DNA of 50,062 bases, from the NCBI GenBank assembly GCA_026415355.1, contig JAOAHF010000004.1:77897-127958 (forward strand), given 5' to 3'. The stretch is from Brevinematales bacterium (GTDB lineage: Bacteria; Spirochaetota; Brevinematia; DTOW01). The position numbers and the translations under genes are program-made. Under the pieces are notes generated by a model. It saw only the letters and a list, made by a program, of their open reading frames with translations. It ran no database searches and had not been told where the DNA came from. Positions 9,673-35,771 of the stretch are shown in pieces. The first letter of the stretch is position 1. The number at the start of each line of letters is the position of its first letter.

Positions 9673-10986
9673 CTACTGCTCTCGGAACAAGAACAATGAT
9701 AATCCGCTTTCTATTTTAGGATAGAAATCCGTTGATTTTTGAGGCATAACAAGCCCTCCTTCAGATACTTTTATAACCTCATCTATACTAACAGGATTCA
9801 ATACAAATATAATATCTCTTATCCCCTTCTTAACTAACTGTATTCCTTCTTTCTCACTTCGTATATAGTCAACATAAGCTCTTGAAAGTATTTGTTCTTC
9901 GCTAAGTCCTAAAACTTCCTTTAAAACTATTTCAGTAAGGATAGATACATCAAGTGAAGCAACTTCTTTTCCGAGAGTCTTAGATAGGTTTTGAATAATA
10001 CCGTTTTTCAGTTCTTCCTTTAGTGTTATTAGATATATCTTACTCGGTTCATACATAGAATAAATACCAAAACAAGTTAATCCTTTTTGTTTTCTATCAT
10101 TCATAACTATGTTAAGCTTATTCACGTCTGCATCAATAGATTGATCTGAATAATTCATAACACCTATCTTAAAATAATTACTAAGTTTAGTCAAAAAAGT
10201 TTCCTGTGAAAATGATTCTACTTTAACAAGTCTATGAGTTGGAAGTATTACTAAATCTTTAGAGTACATATTAAAAAAGGTACCCAAAACATAAGAAAAA
10301 GGATCGTCATCAGTACCATTTCTTTCTTTGGAGTAATTAAGAGTAGTTTCATATCTATGATGCCCATCGGCTATGTATATGCGAGATTTAGATATAGTAT
10401 CAAGTATAAAGCTTTCGAGTTGCTTATTAGACAACTTCCAAAGTGTATGCTTGACCCCATTTTCATCAACTACACTTTTAGCAGTATAATCGAATTCCAT
10501 ATCGTATATCTTGCTATTAACAAGGTTTTCCTTATCTGCATAAAGGAAAAATAAAGATTCAAGCTGACCTTCTACTGCTTCCATAAGTTTCTTTCTATCT
10601 TCCTTCGGTCCACCAAAAGTTTTCTCGTGTCTGAATACCCCATTACCATAATCCTCAACTTTCAACAGCGCAACAATACCTCTTCTCTTATAGTTAACAG
10701 CTCTAATCGTGAATTTCTGTTCGTATATGAATATTCCAGAATCTTTATCCGTTATTAGTATATCTTTAAGAAGCCAGCTAAGCAATTTTTTCTTTGCGTT
10801 TGAATACTTTTCATCTCCTTCGCCCTCAGGAAGAGTTAGATGAACTATGTTATAAGGACTTTTGGAAGCATATTTCTCCCTCTGCTCTGGTGAAATAACA
10901 TCGTAAGGTGGTGCTACTACTAAATTTAGATCACCTATGAGATTAGTGTTATATACTGTAGCTTTAAATGGTCTAAGTAGAGGCAT
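9673..10986 (-). CDS. DUF1015 family protein
   Basis: The 437-residue protein matches DUF1015 across its whole length: the N-terminus PLLRPFKATVYNT, VVAPPYDVISPEQ, NIVHLTLPEGE, the motif IADGHHRYETTLNY near the middle, and a C-terminal region with EKEGIQLV and the closing MPQKSTDFYPKIESGL. The conserved DGHHR suggests a catalytic or nucleotide-binding site, but I know of no firmly assigned reaction for this family member. AAGGAG lies about 10 bases before the ATG. It is the middle gene of an operon with a HAMP membrane protein (21 bases upstream) and rny (39 bases downstream). Confidence 0.9.
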   Translation of the reverse strand: MPLLRPFKATVYNTNLIGDLNLVVAPPYDVISPEQREKYASKSPYNIVHLTLPEGEGDEKYSNAKKKLLSWLLKDILITDKDSGIFIYEQKFTIRAVNYKRRGIVALLKVEDYGNGVFRHEKTFGGPKEDRKKLMEAVEGQLESLFFLYADKENLVNSKIYDMEFDYTAKSVVDENGVKHTLWKLSNKQLESFILDTISKSRIYIADGHHRYETTLNYSKERNGTDDDPFSYVLGTFFNMYSKDLVILPTHRLVKVESFSQETFLTKLSNYFKIGVMNYSDQSIDADVNKLNIVMNDRKQKGLTCFGIYSMYEPSKIYLITLKEELKNGIIQNLSKTLGKEVASLDVSILTEIVLKEVLGLSEEQILSRAYVDYIRSEKEGIQLVKKGIRDIIFVLNPVSIDEVIKVSEGGLVMPQKSTDFYPKIESGLSLFLFREQ

Positions 10987-11007
10987 ATTATAGTATCTCC
11001 TTATAAA

Positions 11008-12120
11008 CTACTTTATATTATATCGTTCTGATATAGATTTTAAAGTATTGTTTATTTCCTTAGCAATATCAAGGAGAAAGTCATTTTTCCTTAGTCTTAT
11101 TTCGTGAGTTATTGGAAGTTTACCATCTGCTATCTCTCTCAGTTCCCTCTTTATTCTATGTACAGGCCCCGCTATCCTATGAGAGAAAAATAATCCAAAT
11201 ACAATGATAAGCAGAACTTGAAGTAAACTCAAAGCAAGTATAGGTCTCCAATATAGATCCAACAAATTATATGCTTTCTTGCCATAGGTTCTAGTCTCAT
11301 AATATAAAGTATCACTATAGCTTTTTACACTTGATACTACACTCTTTATCCTTGAAACACTAGAAGACAAAGAAGATACTATAGTGTCATCTTGCATTCC
11401 CTGAGAGTATAAGCTTGATATAATCCCCTCAACATTAGGTATAAACTCAGGAATAGACCTAACAACCTCATACGACCTTATTACCAAATTCTTATAATCA
11501 TCAAACATCATCTTAAACTTTTTAGCACTCTCAATATCCTCACTCTTGACAAGCAAAGATGATAATTTAGAAATTGCTTCAGTACCTACATCAAATTCAC
11601 ACTCTTGAATACCTCTTTCTATATCAATTCTATACCTACTTACTTGTATTTTAGCTCCTTCCATATCAACCCCAAGGGCAGATGGATTAACATTACCATC
11701 CTTTATAGACTCATTAATTTTAAAGAAAAATCCACCTTCATATGATAAACTAACTTCTTTGATTAACTGCTTTCTCATCTCAATCGCCTTGAGAATATTA
11801 TTCTCAGCTTCCCTTAAGTCATAAACATACTTATCAATTTTTCTTACAATATCATTAATAGTTTCAGGAGGTATAGATAACTTAGATAAATTATTCTTTA
11901 TTTTTGTGCTTTCTACAGATAAATCAGTTGTTTTGTAAAAATCTCTAACCAGCTCTTCAAATAAAACACCTTTTGAAAACTTCTGACTATCTATGTATAA
12001 GAAAAAACCTAAAGAAAACAGAGCACTTATTAAAACAAGTATCACAAAATTTAGGATAAACTTTGTCTGGAATGGCTTATCAACAAAATACTTAAATCTC
12101 TTTTTCTTACCTTGACTCAT
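11008..12120 (-). CDS. membrane protein with C-terminal HAMP domain, no output domain
   Basis: The 370-residue protein has a cytoplasmic basic N-terminus, TM1 (about 21-43), a large mostly helical extracytoplasmic region (about 45-290), TM2 (about 293-313) and a HAMP domain (SHRIAGPVHRIKRELREI) that ends the protein. The layout resembles a chemoreceptor or histidine kinase sensor half, but neither a methyl-accepting nor a kinase domain follows. It could act as a partner for another signalling protein. GGAGG lies 7 bases before the ATG and a promoter (TTGAAT-17-TAGAAT) is visible upstream. It leads the operon with the DUF1015 gene and rny. The signal sensed is unknown. Confidence 0.8.
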   Translation of the reverse strand: MSQGKKKRFKYFVDKPFQTKFILNFVILVLISALFSLGFFLYIDSQKFSKGVLFEELVRDFYKTTDLSVESTKIKNNLSKLSIPPETINDIVRKIDKYVYDLREAENNILKAIEMRKQLIKEVSLSYEGGFFFKINESIKDGNVNPSALGVDMEGAKIQVSRYRIDIERGIQECEFDVGTEAISKLSSLLVKSEDIESAKKFKMMFDDYKNLVIRSYEVVRSIPEFIPNVEGIISSLYSQGMQDDTIVSSLSSSVSRIKSVVSSVKSYSDTLYYETRTYGKKAYNLLDLYWRPILALSLLQVLLIIVFGLFFSHRIAGPVHRIKRELREIADGKLPITHEIRLRKNDFLLDIAKEINNTLKSISERYNIK

Positions 12121-23508: not shown

Positions 23509-24090
23509 TTATTCCCAATTTTTTATTCTATCTTTCTGATTCTTGATGAAGCTTATCCTATCATCAGTAGTCTTAGTATCTTCCTTCTTCTTCTTAAATA
23601 GAGAGACAATAGTATCTAAAAAATCCTCCTTTACACTACTTGCTTGCTTACTTTTTTCTAAATTTAGGATGTTTACAAGCTCTTTATCTTCTATTTTAGT
23701 AATCAAATTCAATCCCCTTTCTCCAGATGACATAACGTAATAATCTTTACCTATCCTTATTATGTATATCGCAACACCTTGCGAAATACCTTTAGAAGCC
23801 ATTATTTCAATTACTCCAAAATCATCAACTGGGCTTCCTGTCGCTTTCTTTAAAAATCTCAGAGAAACATAAACTATTGCTATAACTATAGCAAGCGTAA
23901 GCAAAATATTCAGAATATCAACTATAACCCACCAAAAGCTTCGACCACCTTCCTCTTCTTGTTTGTAAAATCTGTCAAGAAATCCTCCATTAGTGTTTGT
24001 TTCTTGAGCAAAAACAAAACTGAAAACAGATGATACAATAAAAATTAAAATAAGCAACCTGAAAATCCAAACATTACATCTACTGTTCAT
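23509..24090 (-). CDS. fliO: FliO-like flagellar biosynthesis protein
   Basis: The 193-residue product has a signal-like N-terminus (about residues 9-29), a short periplasmic segment, a transmembrane helix (about 55-75) and a cytoplasmic domain with EIMASKGISQGVAIYIIRIG and MSSGERGLNLITKI. This is the pattern of FliO/FliZ, which helps assemble the FliP-FliQ-FliR core of the flagellar export gate. The lysine-rich tail (FKKKKEDTKTT) is not conserved. The gene is usually next to fliP; here it precedes a glycosyltransferase gene. TATAAT ends 6 bases before the ATG and no ribosome site is present. Identification rests on domain layout and is not certain. Confidence 0.65.
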   Translation of the reverse strand: MNSRCNVWIFRLLILIFIVSSVFSFVFAQETNTNGGFLDRFYKQEEEGGRSFWWVIVDILNILLTLAIVIAIVYVSLRFLKKATGSPVDDFGVIEIMASKGISQGVAIYIIRIGKDYYVMSSGERGLNLITKIEDKELVNILNLEKSKQASSVKEDFLDTIVSLFKKKKEDTKTTDDRISFIKNQKDRIKNWE

Positions 24091-24102: not shown

Positions 24103-24214
24103 AAGAATGACAATATAACATTTCTATATAGTAGCACCAAATCAAGACTATACTTAAGTAATTGCAAGAAAGATTATACATTTTTGAAAATTACTTTATG
24201 TTTGGGAGGGGAAA

Positions 24215-27200
24215 ATGTTTGAAACAATAATCTATGTTTTAGTATCTGCTATAACCGCAATCGTGACTTCTTTTATTATAAGAAGTAGAGATAAAAATCT
24301 CTCAAACTTTGAAAAACTCAAGAAATTTACAGAAAAGCAAATCAACGAGTTTGAATCTTTTTTGAGAGAGAAAGAAAAATCACTAGAAGATCTGGTAGTC
24401 AGATTAGAGTCAAATTTAACCATTGGTAAGAACCTTGTGTTTACCATAAACGAAAAAATTAATGAAATAAGAGGAGGAGATAGCGAAATATCTGAAGCAC
24501 TAAAAAGAATAAATGAAACCAAAAAAGAGATAAAAGAAATAATCTTATCCGTAGAGAGCATAAAAGAAGATTTTCAAAAGTTCAAAAACGAGTCAAAAGA
24601 ATCTTCAAAAGTAATACAAGAATTTAAAAACGTTTTATCAAAAGTTAACGAAACAAAATCTCAGATCGACAAAGAAATGAAAAATCTCGAGATACAGGTT
24701 CTAGAATCAGAAAAGAACGTTGATAAAGTCATGAGTAAATTAGATTCCTTGGAATCATCTTTAAACAACTTTTACGGAGATTTTGAAAATAAAGTTAAAA
24801 CAATAGAAAATAAATTAAATGACAGAGTAAGAGAAGTTAGTAACTTTACTAATACGCTAGAAGCAAAAATTGATAGAGATTTAGACAATATTCTTGCCGA
24901 AATAGATTCTAACTTCAATAAAGTCAAACAATCAATAAATAACAAGATTCTTGAAATATCAAACAACTACCAAACTCAGATATCAAAAGACCTTGAACAA
25001 AAATATATCGAGATAAAAGAGTATGCCGAGGAAAAATTGAATAAAAACTTTTCTGACATCGACAACTTAGCAAAAAGGGTAAAACAACTGGAAGATACAA
25101 CCAACAAGTCTATAAGTGAAATTGGTTCACTAATAAACAATGCTGCTGATAAGTTTAATAATATATCTAGCAGCCTAAAAGAATTCTCAGAACTACTAAA
25201 TGAAACAATAAAAACTAAAAACGTTGAAATTTCAAACTTACAAAATTCACTCAATCTTATAGACAACTCTCTCAAGGAGTTCAACGATAGACTTAAAACA
25301 CTAGACATAGATTTTTCTAAAATCAAACAAGAAATTGAAAATACAAAAGATTATTACATGGAAATGATAATATCTGAATTTAACAAAGTTAAATCTGTAC
25401 TAACTTCTGGAATAGAAGATAAGGTTCAATCTCTTATAAAGGAAGTGAATAATAGAGTTGACGCCAACATATCAGAAAAATTAAGAATACTTGAAAACCT
25501 ATTCACTATAAAACAAGAAGAACTTTTTAATAGGTTTAAAGATAACTTCGAATCCATAAGAAACAGCATGAGTAGAGAAATAAACGATTACATAAAAAAT
25601 TTCGACTTGCAAATAGATTCAATAAAAAGCGAATTTATAAACGACATAAATAAACTTGACAGACAGTTTTCAGAAAAGTTTGAAACAATATCTTCACTCG
25701 AAGGTAAAATGAGTCTACTAAAGGATGAAATATCAATTATTGAAGGAAACATAAAGAAATTCAATGAAAACATCTCATTATTACTAAAAGAAAGCCAAGA
25801 AAAAGACAAAGAGCTTAGAGAACTATATGTTAATCTATCAAATGACTTAATGAACCGAATAAATGAGTTATCCCAAGATGTTGATATGAGAATCAAAGTT
25901 GTCATAGATAGAATTGAAAAAGAAATAAATCAGGCAAAAGAAAAGTTTAACCAGAACCTAAACAGCGTATATGAAAAATTTGTAGAAGATATGAGAACAA
26001 ACGTGGCAGAACATGTTGACAACTTGAAGCTATCTTTCAATAATACGTCTGACATAATGCTAAATAGAGTAAGAACAGAAATAGAAAATATCGATAAAAA
26101 GATAGCTGACACAAACAACAATATCGCTCAAATTTCAAATGAAATATCAGAAAGACAAAATGAAATAACCTTAGTTAACGATAAACTCAACAAAATTTCC
26201 GAAACGATAAACAACCTTGTTGAAGGATTTGATAAAAGGATTAATGAAGAAAAAGATGATATTAGAAAAACCGTAGAAAGATTTAACCAAAAAGTCCTTG
26301 AAATATTTTCTTCAGTTGAGAATAAGTTTGAGAACGTAAAGAAAGAATTAGATGAACTATACAAACGCGAAACAGACAGATTCCAGGAAACTATCAACAA
26401 CTATGATAGAAAATTCCTAGAAATACTATCAAAGCTAGAGAACGATACAATCAAAGGATTTGATAAAATAAAAGATGAATACTCAAAAATGCTAAACGAT
26501 TATATAAATAACAAGAATAATTACATATCAGAAGAGATTGAGAAGATAATTAAGAAATCTGCCAAGGATTATGAGGTAAATATATACAATCTCAAGAACA
26601 GGTTTGATAATTTCTTAAATGAATTACAGTCAGAATATGCATCAATGAAAGAAACTGTAAAGAACTATTTATCCAGTTTAGGTGAGACAAAGAAACAAAT
26701 ACTTCAAGATTACGGAAATTTTGAAAACGATCTTAAATCAAAATACAAAGAAATGGAAAATAGATTTATTGAATTATATACATCTAGGTTAAGTGCTTTG
26801 AAAGAGAAGTTTGAAGATACAGTCAAAAAACTAGAAGAAGACCATAAATCCTTCAAAGAAGCATTGAAAAATACCTATTCTTCAGACATCAATCAGTTCA
26901 TAGAATCTTCAAAGAAGAATTTCGATAACAATATTAATCAGTTAACTAATACTGTAAAATCCCAGATTGAAAAAATCAACGAGATCATAGCATCGTTAGG
27001 TAATAAATACAAAGAAACTGAAACATACATAAATAACAGTTTTGAAGCCCTAGATAACAAAATATCTGAAATAGTAAAAGACACAAGTACTAAAGTCAGC
27101 GATATTTTAAACGCACTTCAATCAAAGTACAGAGAAAGTGAGACTAGCATATTAGTTAACTTAAACAACCTAGAAAACAAAGTATCTAACACTGTCAAAG

Positions 27201-28771
27201 AAACAAATGAGAAAATAGATAAATTGGTAGAAAACGCAAATTTGAGAATTTCAGAATCAATGAAAAAATATGACGATAGTTTATCTTCAAAAATAGAAGA
27301 CTTCGAAAAATTGATGGGTGAATTTAAAACCAATATGACAAATCTCACATTCTCACTTAAAGAGCAATTTAATAACCAGATGGAAGAATATCTAAAAGAA
27401 ATATCAAATAAAGTTGAAAATGTTGAAAACAGAGTAGAAGATTATTTAAATAGCATAACAAGGTCTCTTCAAGACAAAATATCCGATCTTGAAGATAAGT
27501 CTCAAGATAATATAGTCAAATGGATAAACACGATGAAAGAAACATTTGAAAAAGAAAAACAGTCAATACATGAAAGAATAGATAGTTATAAATCACAAGT
27601 AGAGAAAGAAATATCAAACACCTTAAGTATCATTAGATTTCAGGCTGATTCTTTCGAAAAAGACATGATGAATAAAATAAACAGAATACAATCAGAAGTT
27701 AACACCTTATATACAAACGAGAAAGAACTCATAGACAGTTTACTAGAAAATGCTAAATCAAATCTGCATACTATTTCAAAAGAAGCAGAAAAAAGATCTC
27801 AAGAATTCAGAGATTTTATTGAGGACCAATTTAAAAAATATCACAGTACTATACAAAATTTAGACAAAAAAATAAGTGAAATAGAAGATAACATAAAAAA
27901 GTTTAACAAACTTGACGAAAGAATAGATCTTATTAACTCTAAAATAAACGATATAAAGACTATGATGTCAGTAATTGAGGAAAATAGGAAAGTAGTCTCA
28001 TCTGTAATGAGAGATATAGATGATATAAGAAAGGAAAAGATAAACTTAGAGAAATTCCTATCATACTATGAAAAGAATTCTAGATTAGTAAAAGATATAG
28101 AAAGCAAATTGCTTGTTTTGAATGAAATTGCCAACAGAATTTCCTCAAACATCGAATTCATAAAAGATAAAGAAAAACTCATACTTGATGTTTCAAATAG
28201 AATTACAACCTTCGAAAAAGATATACAAAATATAGCTGAAATACTGTCAAGCTTAGATGCCAAGAAGGGAATAGTAGAAAACATGCTAACTCAAATAAAT
28301 CACCTCAGAAATAGTATTACAGACTTCGAGAAAAAGTATAACCAACTTTCGAGAGTACTATCCGAAGCTATGAAAAAGAAAGAAGAAATTGAAGGAATAC
28401 TATCATCAATAAACTCAAGGATAGATCACATCATAACTACAAATCACAACATAGAAGGAGCAGTCAGTAAAATACAGAGCTTAGAAGGAATAATAGCTCA
28501 TGTAAACTCAGAACTTAGCAAAGCAGTAAAAGTCAAAGAAGATCTTCTTAAACTTGAAGACAAACTAAACAATGCCATCGAAATTGCTAAAAAGTATATA
28601 TCAAACATAGAAAACAAAACTGGCGTTAAGATCAAAGAGAATAATATATCTGATGAACAAATATCAACAATTATGAGAATGCATAGAGAAGGATGGAATA
28701 TAGATAATATTTCTAGAGCAGTTGGAGTTACAAAAGATTTTGTTAAACTAATAATCGAGAAATATTCATAA
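24215..28771 (+). CDS. giant membrane-anchored coiled-coil protein (SpiroCoCo-like) with C-terminal HTH-like tail
   Basis: The 1518-residue protein has one N-terminal membrane segment (about residues 4-23). About 1430 residues of nearly continuous charged heptad-type coiled coil follow, rich in Lys, Glu, Asn, Ile and Ser, with almost no Pro, Trp or Cys. A compact C-terminal tail of about 45 residues (ISDEQISTIMRMHREGWNID followed by ISRAVGVTKDFVKLIIEKY) reads like a helix-turn-helix. Long coiled-coil proteins of this sort, annotated SpiroCoCo in spirochaetes, are thought to be structural; the exact function is not known. A GGGAGGGG ribosome site lies just before the ATG. recX begins 1 base after its stop, implying one mRNA. 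A tether or scaffold linking the inner membrane to DNA or the cell cylinder is inference. Confidence 0.8.
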   Translation: MFETIIYVLVSAITAIVTSFIIRSRDKNLSNFEKLKKFTEKQINEFESFLREKEKSLEDLVVRLESNLTIGKNLVFTINEKINEIRGGDSEISEALKRINETKKEIKEIILSVESIKEDFQKFKNESKESSKVIQEFKNVLSKVNETKSQIDKEMKNLEIQVLESEKNVDKVMSKLDSLESSLNNFYGDFENKVKTIENKLNDRVREVSNFTNTLEAKIDRDLDNILAEIDSNFNKVKQSINNKILEISNNYQTQISKDLEQKYIEIKEYAEEKLNKNFSDIDNLAKRVKQLEDTTNKSISEIGSLINNAADKFNNISSSLKEFSELLNETIKTKNVEISNLQNSLNLIDNSLKEFNDRLKTLDIDFSKIKQEIENTKDYYMEMIISEFNKVKSVLTSGIEDKVQSLIKEVNNRVDANISEKLRILENLFTIKQEELFNRFKDNFESIRNSMSREINDYIKNFDLQIDSIKSEFINDINKLDRQFSEKFETISSLEGKMSLLKDEISIIEGNIKKFNENISLLLKESQEKDKELRELYVNLSNDLMNRINELSQDVDMRIKVVIDRIEKEINQAKEKFNQNLNSVYEKFVEDMRTNVAEHVDNLKLSFNNTSDIMLNRVRTEIENIDKKIADTNNNIAQISNEISERQNEITLVNDKLNKISETINNLVEGFDKRINEEKDDIRKTVERFNQKVLEIFSSVENKFENVKKELDELYKRETDRFQETINNYDRKFLEILSKLENDTIKGFDKIKDEYSKMLNDYINNKNNYISEEIEKIIKKSAKDYEVNIYNLKNRFDNFLNELQSEYASMKETVKNYLSSLGETKKQILQDYGNFENDLKSKYKEMENRFIELYTSRLSALKEKFEDTVKKLEEDHKSFKEALKNTYSSDINQFIESSKKNFDNNINQLTNTVKSQIEKINEIIASLGNKYKETETYINNSFEALDNKISEIVKDTSTKVSDILNALQSKYRESETSILVNLNNLENKVSNTVKETNEKIDKLVENANLRISESMKKYDDSLSSKIEDFEKLMGEFKTNMTNLTFSLKEQFNNQMEEYLKEISNKVENVENRVEDYLNSITRSLQDKISDLEDKSQDNIVKWINTMKETFEKEKQSIHERIDSYKSQVEKEISNTLSIIRFQADSFEKDMMNKINRIQSEVNTLYTNEKELIDSLLENAKSNLHTISKEAEKRSQEFRDFIEDQFKKYHSTIQNLDKKISEIEDNIKKFNKLDERIDLINSKINDIKTMMSVIEENRKVVSSVMRDIDDIRKEKINLEKFLSYYEKNSRLVKDIESKLLVLNEIANRISSNIEFIKDKEKLILDVSNRITTFEKDIQNIAEILSSLDAKKGIVENMLTQINHLRNSITDFEKKYNQLSRVLSEAMKKKEEIEGILSSINSRIDHIITTNHNIEGAVSKIQSLEGIIAHVNSELSKAVKVKEDLLKLEDKLNNAIEIAKKYISNIENKTGVKIKENNISDEQISTIMRMHREGWNIDNISRAVGVTKDFVKLIIEKYS

Positions 28772-28772
28772 A

Positions 28773-29204
28773 ATGAACAAAGATATATTATTAAAAACAT
28801 TGAGATATGTCTCAATAAAACCCAGAACTAGTAAAGAAATCCAAGATTATCTTGAAAAAAAACTCAATCTCAACAAAGAAGTTATAAACGAAGTCTTAGA
28901 ATACCTCAAACAAAACGGCTATATTGATGACGAATTTATAAAGGATAGCATAATAAGATCAAAGATATCTAAGGGGTTTGGACCTAACTATATAAAAATG
29001 AAATTACTGTCACGCGGATTAAGTAGTAACTTAGAAATAGAACCAAACATAAACAAAGCAGTAGAAATAGTAAAAAGAAAATACTCAAGTGAACTCCACA
29101 GCGGATACAATCAAAAGGTGGTATCCAAAATCATCAGATTTCTTTCTTATAGAGGCTTTACTCCCTCTCAAATATCAGAAATACTAAAAAAAGTTATAGA
29201 ATAA
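28773..29204 (+). CDS. recX: RecX family regulatory protein
   Basis: RecX proteins bind RecA filaments and limit recombination activity. The 143-residue product is all helical and built from RecX-type three-helix modules: an opening LKTLRYVSIKPRTSKEIQDY, the hallmark LEYLKQNGYIDDEFIKDSII, SKGFGPNYIKMKLLSRGLS, and a closing RFLSYRGFTPSQISEILKKV. It starts 1 base after the stop of the giant coiled-coil gene, with no ribosome site of its own in the gap, so it is probably translated by reinitiation. recA is not in the window. It ends 5 bases before the converging TPR gene. Confidence 0.88.
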   Translation: MNKDILLKTLRYVSIKPRTSKEIQDYLEKKLNLNKEVINEVLEYLKQNGYIDDEFIKDSIIRSKISKGFGPNYIKMKLLSRGLSSNLEIEPNINKAVEIVKRKYSSELHSGYNQKVVSKIIRFLSYRGFTPSQISEILKKVIE

Positions 29205-30014: not shown

Positions 30015-30482
30015 CTAAACTGACAGTACTTTGTCAAAAACTACACTTAGTATTACCTCACCATAATGCGTTATAAACAATACTTCAACACATGGTGAAG
30101 AATAAGATATAACTTTACCCTTATACTTATAAAACATAGGATGTGATATAGAATAATCGAGCTTTCTTTTATAGGTTATTTCAAGAAGTTGTGAATTCAC
30201 TATATTTCCAAACTCTCCAACTCCTGATAACATAAGCTCCTTATCTTTAGGTATCTCATCAATCTGATATATTCTTTTAACCACTTCAATCGCAAGCCTC
30301 TCGTCCATTTCATATATAACATTACCTTTAAAATCACCCTTTATCTTAAAGAAAAAAGAAATATCCTTTTCTATCTTTTTACCTGTTTTAAGATTAACTT
30401 TGTCTTTATGTATCTCAATATTCAACTTCTTACAAACCGATACAAAAGCATCAATGAACGGATTTATTATCTCAAATCTCAT
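30015..30482 (-). CDS. CheX-like chemotaxis phosphatase
   Basis: The 155-residue product begins INPFIDAFVSVCKKL, includes FKIKGDFKGNVIYEMDERLA and has the E-x-x-N active-site pattern in SGVGEFGNIVNSQLLEITYK, as in the CheC/CheX/FliY family; CheX dephosphorylates CheY-P in spirochaetes. The strands near the C-terminus (CVEVLFITHYGEVILSVVF) complete the fold. The catalytic Glu and Asn are both present. Its ATG overlaps the stop of the Nudix gene by 4 bases (ATGA), showing translational coupling. No cheA, cheY or cheW is close by, so a role in classical chemotaxis is plausible but not shown here. Confidence 0.75.
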   Translation of the reverse strand: MRFEIINPFIDAFVSVCKKLNIEIHKDKVNLKTGKKIEKDISFFFKIKGDFKGNVIYEMDERLAIEVVKRIYQIDEIPKDKELMLSGVGEFGNIVNSQLLEITYKRKLDYSISHPMFYKYKGKVISYSSPCVEVLFITHYGEVILSVVFDKVLSV

Positions 30483-34638: not shown

Positions 34639-34667
34639 TTGACAATAACTTCAGCGATATGTATACT
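34639..34667 (+). promoter_or_regulatory. strong promoter of fliG
   Basis: A perfect TTGACA (34639-34644), a 17-base spacer and TATACT (34662-34667) are visible, with an overlapping TATAAT at 34667-34672. An in-frame ATG at 34659 lies inside the promoter and cannot be the real start if this is the main promoter. Confidence 0.75.
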
Positions 34668-34685
34668 ATAATTAGAGGTAAGTTT

Positions 34686-35771
34686 ATGGGTGATGCTGAG
34701 AAATCTACTAAGGATAAAAAATCAGAGGTTCAACAAGCAATATCCCAGCAGAAAAAAGACAAGAAGCAATCAAAAGCTTTAACAGGTAGGAGGAAAGCTG
34801 CAATATTCTTAATCACTGTTGGACCTGAGGTATCAGCAGAAATATTTAAGCACCTCAAAGAAGATGAAATAGAAGAGCTAACATTTGAAATAGCAAGAAC
34901 AGACAAAGTCGAACCTGAAGAGAGGGAAAAAGTACTGGCAGAATTTCAAGAACTTATGATGGCACAAGAATTCATAGCACTAGGTGGAGTTGATTATGCT
35001 AGAGAGGTTTTAGAAAGAGCACTTGGTACTCAAAGAGCTATCGATATCATCAATAGGCTTACTTCTTCCTTACAAGTGAAACCATTCGATTTTGTAAGAA
35101 GAGCAGATCCTCAACATCTTGTAAATTTCATACAAGGCGAACATCCACAAGTTATAGCACTTATACTTTCATATCTTGATCCTAAAAAAGCAGCAACCAT
35201 ACTTTCAGCACTACCTGAGGAAATACAACCAGATATAGCAAAAAGAATAGCACTCATGGATAGAACAACTCCAGACGTCTTAAGAGAAGTAGAAAGAATA
35301 CTAGAAAGAAAACTATCAACCTTAGCAAGTGAAGACTACACCCAGGCAGGTGGTATAGATGCTATAGTCCAAATACTCAATAATTCAGATAGAACTACAG
35401 AAAAGAATATAATTGAAGCTCTTGAGGAAGATAACCCAGACTTAGCAGAAGAAATTAAAAAGAGAATGTTTGTATTTGAAGATATAGTTCTTTTAGATGA
35501 TAGATCAATACAAAAAGTTCTTAGGCATATAGATCAGCAAGATCTAGCAAAAGCACTTAAACATACAGACCCCGAGGTTCAAGAGAAAATATTTAGAAAT
35601 ATGAGTAAGAGAGCATCTCAAATGTTAAAAGAAGACATGGAATATATGGGTCCTGTCAGACTAAAAGATGTCGAAGAAGCTCAACAAAAAATTGTAGGTG
35701 TCATAAGAAAACTCGAAGAGCAAGGTGAGATTATCGTTTCTAGGTCTCCTGAGGACGAAATAATTGTTTAA
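34686..35771 (+). CDS. fliG: flagellar motor switch protein FliG
   Basis: FliG is the rotor protein that contacts the stator and sets rotation direction. From the ATG at 34686 (AGAGG 7 bases upstream) it has 361 residues. The N-terminal domain has TGRRKAAIFLITVGPEVSAE and FIALGGVDYAREVLERALG, the middle domain has the EHPQVIALILSYLDP signature, and the C-terminal domain has MFVFEDIVLLDDRSIQKVL with the charged torque helix. An extra Lys/Gln-rich N-terminus of about 30 residues is typical of spirochaetes. It is a lone gene with its own strong promoter; no fliF or fliH adjoins. Its stop overlaps that of the converging phosphatase gene, the two sharing TTAA at 35768-35771. Confidence 0.97.
   Translation: MGDAEKSTKDKKSEVQQAISQQKKDKKQSKALTGRRKAAIFLITVGPEVSAEIFKHLKEDEIEELTFEIARTDKVEPEEREKVLAEFQELMMAQEFIALGGVDYAREVLERALGTQRAIDIINRLTSSLQVKPFDFVRRADPQHLVNFIQGEHPQVIALILSYLDPKKAATILSALPEEIQPDIAKRIALMDRTTPDVLREVERILERKLSTLASEDYTQAGGIDAIVQILNNSDRTTEKNIIEALEEDNPDLAEEIKKRMFVFEDIVLLDDRSIQKVLRHIDQQDLAKALKHTDPEVQEKIFRNMSKRASQMLKEDMEYMGPVRLKDVEEAQQKIVGVIRKLEEQGEIIVSRSPEDEIIV

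Follow-up and report, generated by a model that had tools for sequence, protein, structure and literature searches.

What does a spirochaete do with a 1518-residue coiled-coil protein that is predicted to be held in the membrane at one end and to carry a small folded domain at the other? The gene that raises this question (24215..28771, + strand) lies in a 50,062-nucleotide stretch of DNA from a Brevinematales bacterium, the whole of which is referred to here as the window. Its product matches the profiles NF047514 and NF047515 of the SpiroCoCo family, whose record gives no function, and no paper was found under the family name or the locus names in the open-access literature searched. The initial annotation regarded the system as under-described, which holds in that the literature searched offers no function, but the family itself had already been named.

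A giant membrane-anchored protein of the SpiroCoCo family

The open frame is not a chance ORF, since the density of stop trinucleotides gives a probability of ~8e-45 for one of this length, and a Shine-Dalgarno-like sequence, GGGAGGGG (24204..24211, +), lies 5' of its ATG. The N-terminal membrane segment that had been claimed was recovered by hydropathy as a single transmembrane helix, residues 4-22 (24224..24280, +). This is the sole hydrophobic segment of the protein, with a Kyte-Doolittle value of 2.36 compared to 0.95 for the next best segment elsewhere. The helix is followed by IRSRDK, and by the positive-inside rule the N-terminus is therefore predicted to face out and the coil to be cytoplasmic. 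Within this stretch, R23 and D26 form a family motif and are invariant among 12 aligned SpiroCoCo N-termini.

Along its entire length the protein has no proline and no cysteine. As one helix, residues 26-1465 (~1,440 residues) would extend for ~214 nm, in agreement with the order of 200 nm given previously. Fourier analysis revealed a 3.5-residue (heptad) periodicity at both ends of the coil, at about residues 26-205 (24290..24829, +) and 1166-1465 (27710..28609, +), and mainly an 11/3 (hendecad-like) to 3.6 periodicity in the long middle, at about residues 206-1165 (24830..27709, +); these boundaries were taken from 120-residue windows and are approximate. The coil is thus uninterrupted in the sense of ~1,440 residues without proline or cysteine, but it is not a uniform heptad coil. 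Matches to SMC/Rad50, apolipoprotein, ATG17 and other coil models were rejected as compositional, being far under, or unrelated to, the full-length models.

The N-terminal transmembrane domain scored 92.2 bits against SpiroCoCo_N (NF047514), over the cut-off of 75. The C-terminal domain, tail included, was matched end-to-end by SpiroCoCo_C (NF047515; residues 1202-1514, model positions 2-313, E 8e-30), at 104 bits for a cut-off of 125. Scores are similar elsewhere in the class (14 of 18 genomes under 125 bits, 4 over), and we therefore took this shortfall as divergence. On these profile matches the protein is a member of the SpiroCoCo family, with which the LA_3659 family (NF047516) is grouped. 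At E <= 1e-3, SpiroCoCo was detected in 281 of the 296 genomes of Spirochaetota, and the best 80 loci in named genomes were, going by their titles, all from spirochaetes. The shortest open frames, in some drafts, have ~500-900 aa; the longest, in a genome of family f14, has 9,127 aa. Frames of 3,000 to 9,127 codons in that family (e.g. in G070 and G103) place these proteins among the largest bacterial coils. Tandem SpiroCoCo genes were seen in families f6 and f19 (L088 and L114; also L083/L092 of f19), and at loci of f8 and f27 a second long coil gene lies upstream.

The C-terminal tail has a predicted helix-turn-helix fold

The last 108 residues were modelled with AlphaFold2 together with 19 relatives. 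The model consists of one long helix followed by a confident three-helix domain (residues 1480-1491, 1496-1503 and 1507-1517; pLDDT of the block 92-97), and we delimit the tail as residues 1474-1518 (28634..28768, +). Foldseek superposed it on helix-turn-helix (HTH) domains, including those of IstA, resolvases and paired domains, over ~36-45 residues and with an rmsd of 0.6-2.2 Å for the cleanest matches; none of the HTH matches had an E-value under 0.07. The HTH-like tail noticed in the initial annotation is therefore a predicted trihelical HTH fold, and it is kept in other spirochaetes. In an alignment of 34 SpiroCoCo tails from ~28 families of the phylum, W20 and I25 were invariant and L15, G19 and V36 nearly so, and G1493, W1494 and L1512 of the 1518-residue protein sit on family-conserved columns. 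Nearly all families overlooked by the tail profile carry related, more divergent tails, with no readable tail at two loci (L283, L302). The tail profile picked up no second SpiroCoCo copy in the genome from which the window comes.

When the 34 tails were scanned singly against Pfam, the best-scoring family was DUF6115 (PF19610), matched by 31 with a lowest E of 1.7e-10; the tails align to the C-terminal end of this model, and no function for the family is described in the literature searched. HTH_23, a model of DNA-binding type, matched 32 of the 34 (best E 2.8e-7), and DUF2802 matched 24 (best E 2.3e-7). The tail of the 1518-residue protein itself scored under the gathering cut-offs, with 20.1 bits against DUF6115 (cut-off 27) and 12.5 bits against DUF2802 (cut-off 33.5).

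A homologous tail in a short protein of the flagellar gene cluster

Searching genomes with the tail profile revealed a second, short protein (~150-280 aa) with the same tail in many spirochaetes. It has an N-terminal transmembrane helix, a coil, a linker and the tail. In most genomes examined its gene belongs to the run that holds flhA-flhF-flhG, the distance downstream of flhF being ~4-7 kb in ten of them. The order at the locus is flhA-flhF-flhG, then genes fitting FlgV, sigma28, FapA and YjfB, then the short protein. This position corresponds to the slot of the flagellar superoperon for which the FlgV paper (PMC11607428) reports a TM + HTH protein that had not been characterised. These loci are among the flhA-flhF regions L180-L195 and L199; at L186, from a genome with a 1.1-Mb single chromosome, the gene is on the strand opposite to flhF.

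Profile-profile alignment with hhalign matched the tail of the giant protein to those of the short proteins with a probability of 98.5 and an E-value of 3.4e-15 (1.1e-14 with longer C-termini). As controls, sigma28 region 4 gave E 0.012 and a two-sequence profile of Rpn/transposase-like tails gave E 3.3e-7, the latter indicating that the tail hairpin occurs in unrelated proteins as well. In Pfam, 15 of 16 short proteins matched DUF6115 (2.4e-8) and nine matched DUF2802 (1.5e-6), with few matches to generic HTH models. The two proteins share an N-terminal transmembrane helix, a coil and a homologous C-terminal HTH-fold tail, the N-terminal likeness being weak (probability 64). In contrast to the giant protein, the short one has a disordered linker in place of the giant coil, is encoded in the flagellar operon and lacks the W after the conserved G of the tail. 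In the window's own genome, a TM + coil protein with a degenerate tail (L187, 10293-10961, -) is perhaps the local short paralogue; a small YjfB-like gene (10958-11395, -) adjoins it.

SpiroCoCo co-occurs with flagella

The phyletic distribution was tallied by hand across the 296 Spirochaetota genomes, 231 of which have a completeness of 90% or more and a contamination of no more than 5%. FlhA was used as the flagellar marker because SRP GTPases cross-match the FlhF model (TIGR03499) in all control genomes, for which reason FlhF was rejected. Of these 231 genomes, 219 have FlhA. SpiroCoCo_C (E < 1e-15) was found in 217 of the 219, whereas the 12 that lack FlhA had no match; the two exceptions among the FlhA-bearing genomes, G098 and G157, are both draft genomes. 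The threshold was set after weak coil matches had been seen down to ~1e-8. When 26 genomes were searched again at 1e-10, the 14 controls among them had no match and the same two exceptions stood. All 12 FlhA-less genomes belong to one family, f49, and so represent one co-loss, not twelve. We take f49 to be the Sphaerochaetaceae, and it has presumably lost much else besides flagella.

The giant protein thus has a tail homologous to that of a flagellar-operon protein and co-occurs with flagella, and a flagellar link is reasonably supported. In the genomes examined, the SpiroCoCo gene was never found inside a flagellar operon.

Comparison with FipA and a proposed role

FipA recruits FlhF in gamma-proteobacteria, binding it via DUF2802, and has 163 aa arranged as a short periplasmic N-terminus, a transmembrane helix, a coil and a C-terminal DUF2802; it is reported absent from spirochetes (PMC11620751). 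The 1518-residue protein has the same topology and domain order, and SpiroCoCo tails match the C-terminal half of DUF2802 weakly but repeatedly. The two differ in length (163 compared to 1518 aa), and FlhF binding by SpiroCoCo is a conjecture by analogy. In FipA, G110 and L129 are needed for FlhF binding and E126 is not (PMC11620751). If the 68 columns of DUF2802 are laid ungapped on FipA 68-135, a register inferred from the Pfam alignment, these residues correspond to G1493 (G110), L1512 (L129) and F1509 (E126). Among 32 tails the G is found in 31, the L in 27 and the E in 21, with the G replaced in some families (f9, f32). This match is suggestive only, because the G and the core positions are shared by HTH domains in general. 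At the E126 position the majority of Spirochaetia tails carry Glu, and all ten members of the class to which this DNA belongs have an aromatic residue there; this class mostly keeps the Leu three residues on, and the change may track an altered partner surface.

We tentatively propose, at somewhat less than even chances, that the 1518-residue protein is a giant paralogue of the flagellar-operon TM + coil + HTH protein and that it captures a factor for placing or assembling flagella. A flagellar protein of this plan would have been duplicated, one copy growing the giant coil. The N-terminal helix would anchor it in the inner membrane, and the coil, up to ~200 nm here and probably oligomeric, would project into the cytoplasm or run under the membrane. 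The tail would then be a protein-binding HTH-fold module that catches the factor away from the anchor. Capture is suggested by the membrane anchor and the comparison with FipA, whereas the topology, the oligomerisation and the flagellar role are ones we infer. As to the partner, our guess by analogy with FipA is the GTPase FlhF as first candidate, with FlhG, the C-ring or the export gate as alternatives; that it is FlhF specifically is much less probable than the proposal as a whole. The purpose of the coil length is likewise a guess. A more elaborate version, which we consider improbable, has the short operon protein and the giant coil (~720 to >9,000 aa) act as a FipA-like pair that places periplasmic flagella, the FlhF-binding tail reaching hundreds of nanometres and the coil serving as a line or ruler for basal-body positions.

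FlhF matters for flagellar placement in Borrelia, and the landmarks used beyond bacteria with a single polar flagellum are unclear according to a review (PMC12826062). SpiroCoCo, near-universal in spirochaetes and with a tail of flagellar type, is a specific candidate for positioning or counting internal flagella. A flagellar role, if true, would also supply the function that this named family lacks.

Alternative explanations

The tail could instead bind DNA, the coil tethering the chromosome to the membrane and recX marking a link with chromosome maintenance, as the initial annotation suggested. The fold does superpose on DNA-binding HTHs, and HTH_23, HTH_7 and HTH_SB match many SpiroCoCo tails. 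Against this, the tails are neutral to slightly acidic (mean net charge -0.5 per 30 residues in 32 family tails, and -1.9 in the short paralogues), whereas the HTH region of Sleeping Beauty is strongly basic at +10, and most Spirochaetia tails have a conserved, exposed-looking E/L in helix 3. The best curated match is DUF6115, the same tail occurs in the membrane protein of the flagellar operon, and the adjacency of recX is not conserved. The FlhA-less family, whose chromosome still needs upkeep, has no SpiroCoCo. DNA tethering found no support in these data, and we regard it as very improbable; the tail may nonetheless bind DNA.

A cytoskeletal or cell-shape element, in which a long sub-membrane filament stiffens or measures helical or flat-wave cells and the flagellar link is indirect, seems unlikely but deserves more weight than tethering. 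Its great length variation, up to 9,127 aa in the f14 genome, would be in keeping with a role in mechanics or spacing, the coil has stretches of hendecad type, and the loss in f49 could mirror a lost cell shape. It offers no reason for a flagellar-operon protein to have the same tail. A third alternative is that SpiroCoCo is a flagellar factor acting without FlhF, through regulation of the export gate or of some other basal-body step. The precedent is SwrB of Bacillus, which is anchored N-terminally and activates the export apparatus through FliP (PMC4526659, PMC13344023). SwrB is conserved in Bacillus only (PMC4526659), and we give this explanation a rather low probability.

Genes neighbouring the SpiroCoCo gene

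As had been noted, recX (143 aa; 28773..29204, +) starts one base after the stop codon of the coiled-coil gene, which ends at 28771. Its product scores over the Pfam cut-off of 26 for RecX_HTH1 (35.8) and RecX_HTH3 (28.6) and under it for RecX_HTH2 (22.8), and matches PRK14135 with E 1.8e-18, under the curated cut-off of that model. The suggested coupling of the two genes, whose failure in relatives the initial annotation had named as grounds for refutation, did not extend to relatives outside the genus. Both genes were found in two congeners, in each of which recX directly follows SpiroCoCo. The recX match is on a different contig in six genomes of the same class, and families f2-f5 of the class have an apparent serS in its place, with other genes there in more distant relatives. 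The adjacency is most likely a chance, genus-level gene order, and with it the hint of a link between RecX and chromosome maintenance loses its support. recX was ruled out as a functional partner on synteny and is not judged part of the system.

The divergent neighbour (23509..24090, -) encodes a FliO-like protein (E 2e-7 for TIGR03500 and 4e-4 for PF04347, each under its cut-off). It was rejected as evidence of flagellar function, the adjacency not being conserved in two congeners. Other conserved neighbours of SpiroCoCo genes, named by eye from sequence starts, were set aside as housekeeping-like: a HAD-like gene, which lies upstream in 10 families, and apparent GrpE/DnaK and ExbB/ExbD genes. 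Within the window, flagellar and chemotaxis genes are scattered among housekeeping genes, and include those for a CheX-like protein (30015-30482, -) and a complete FliG (34659-35771, +).
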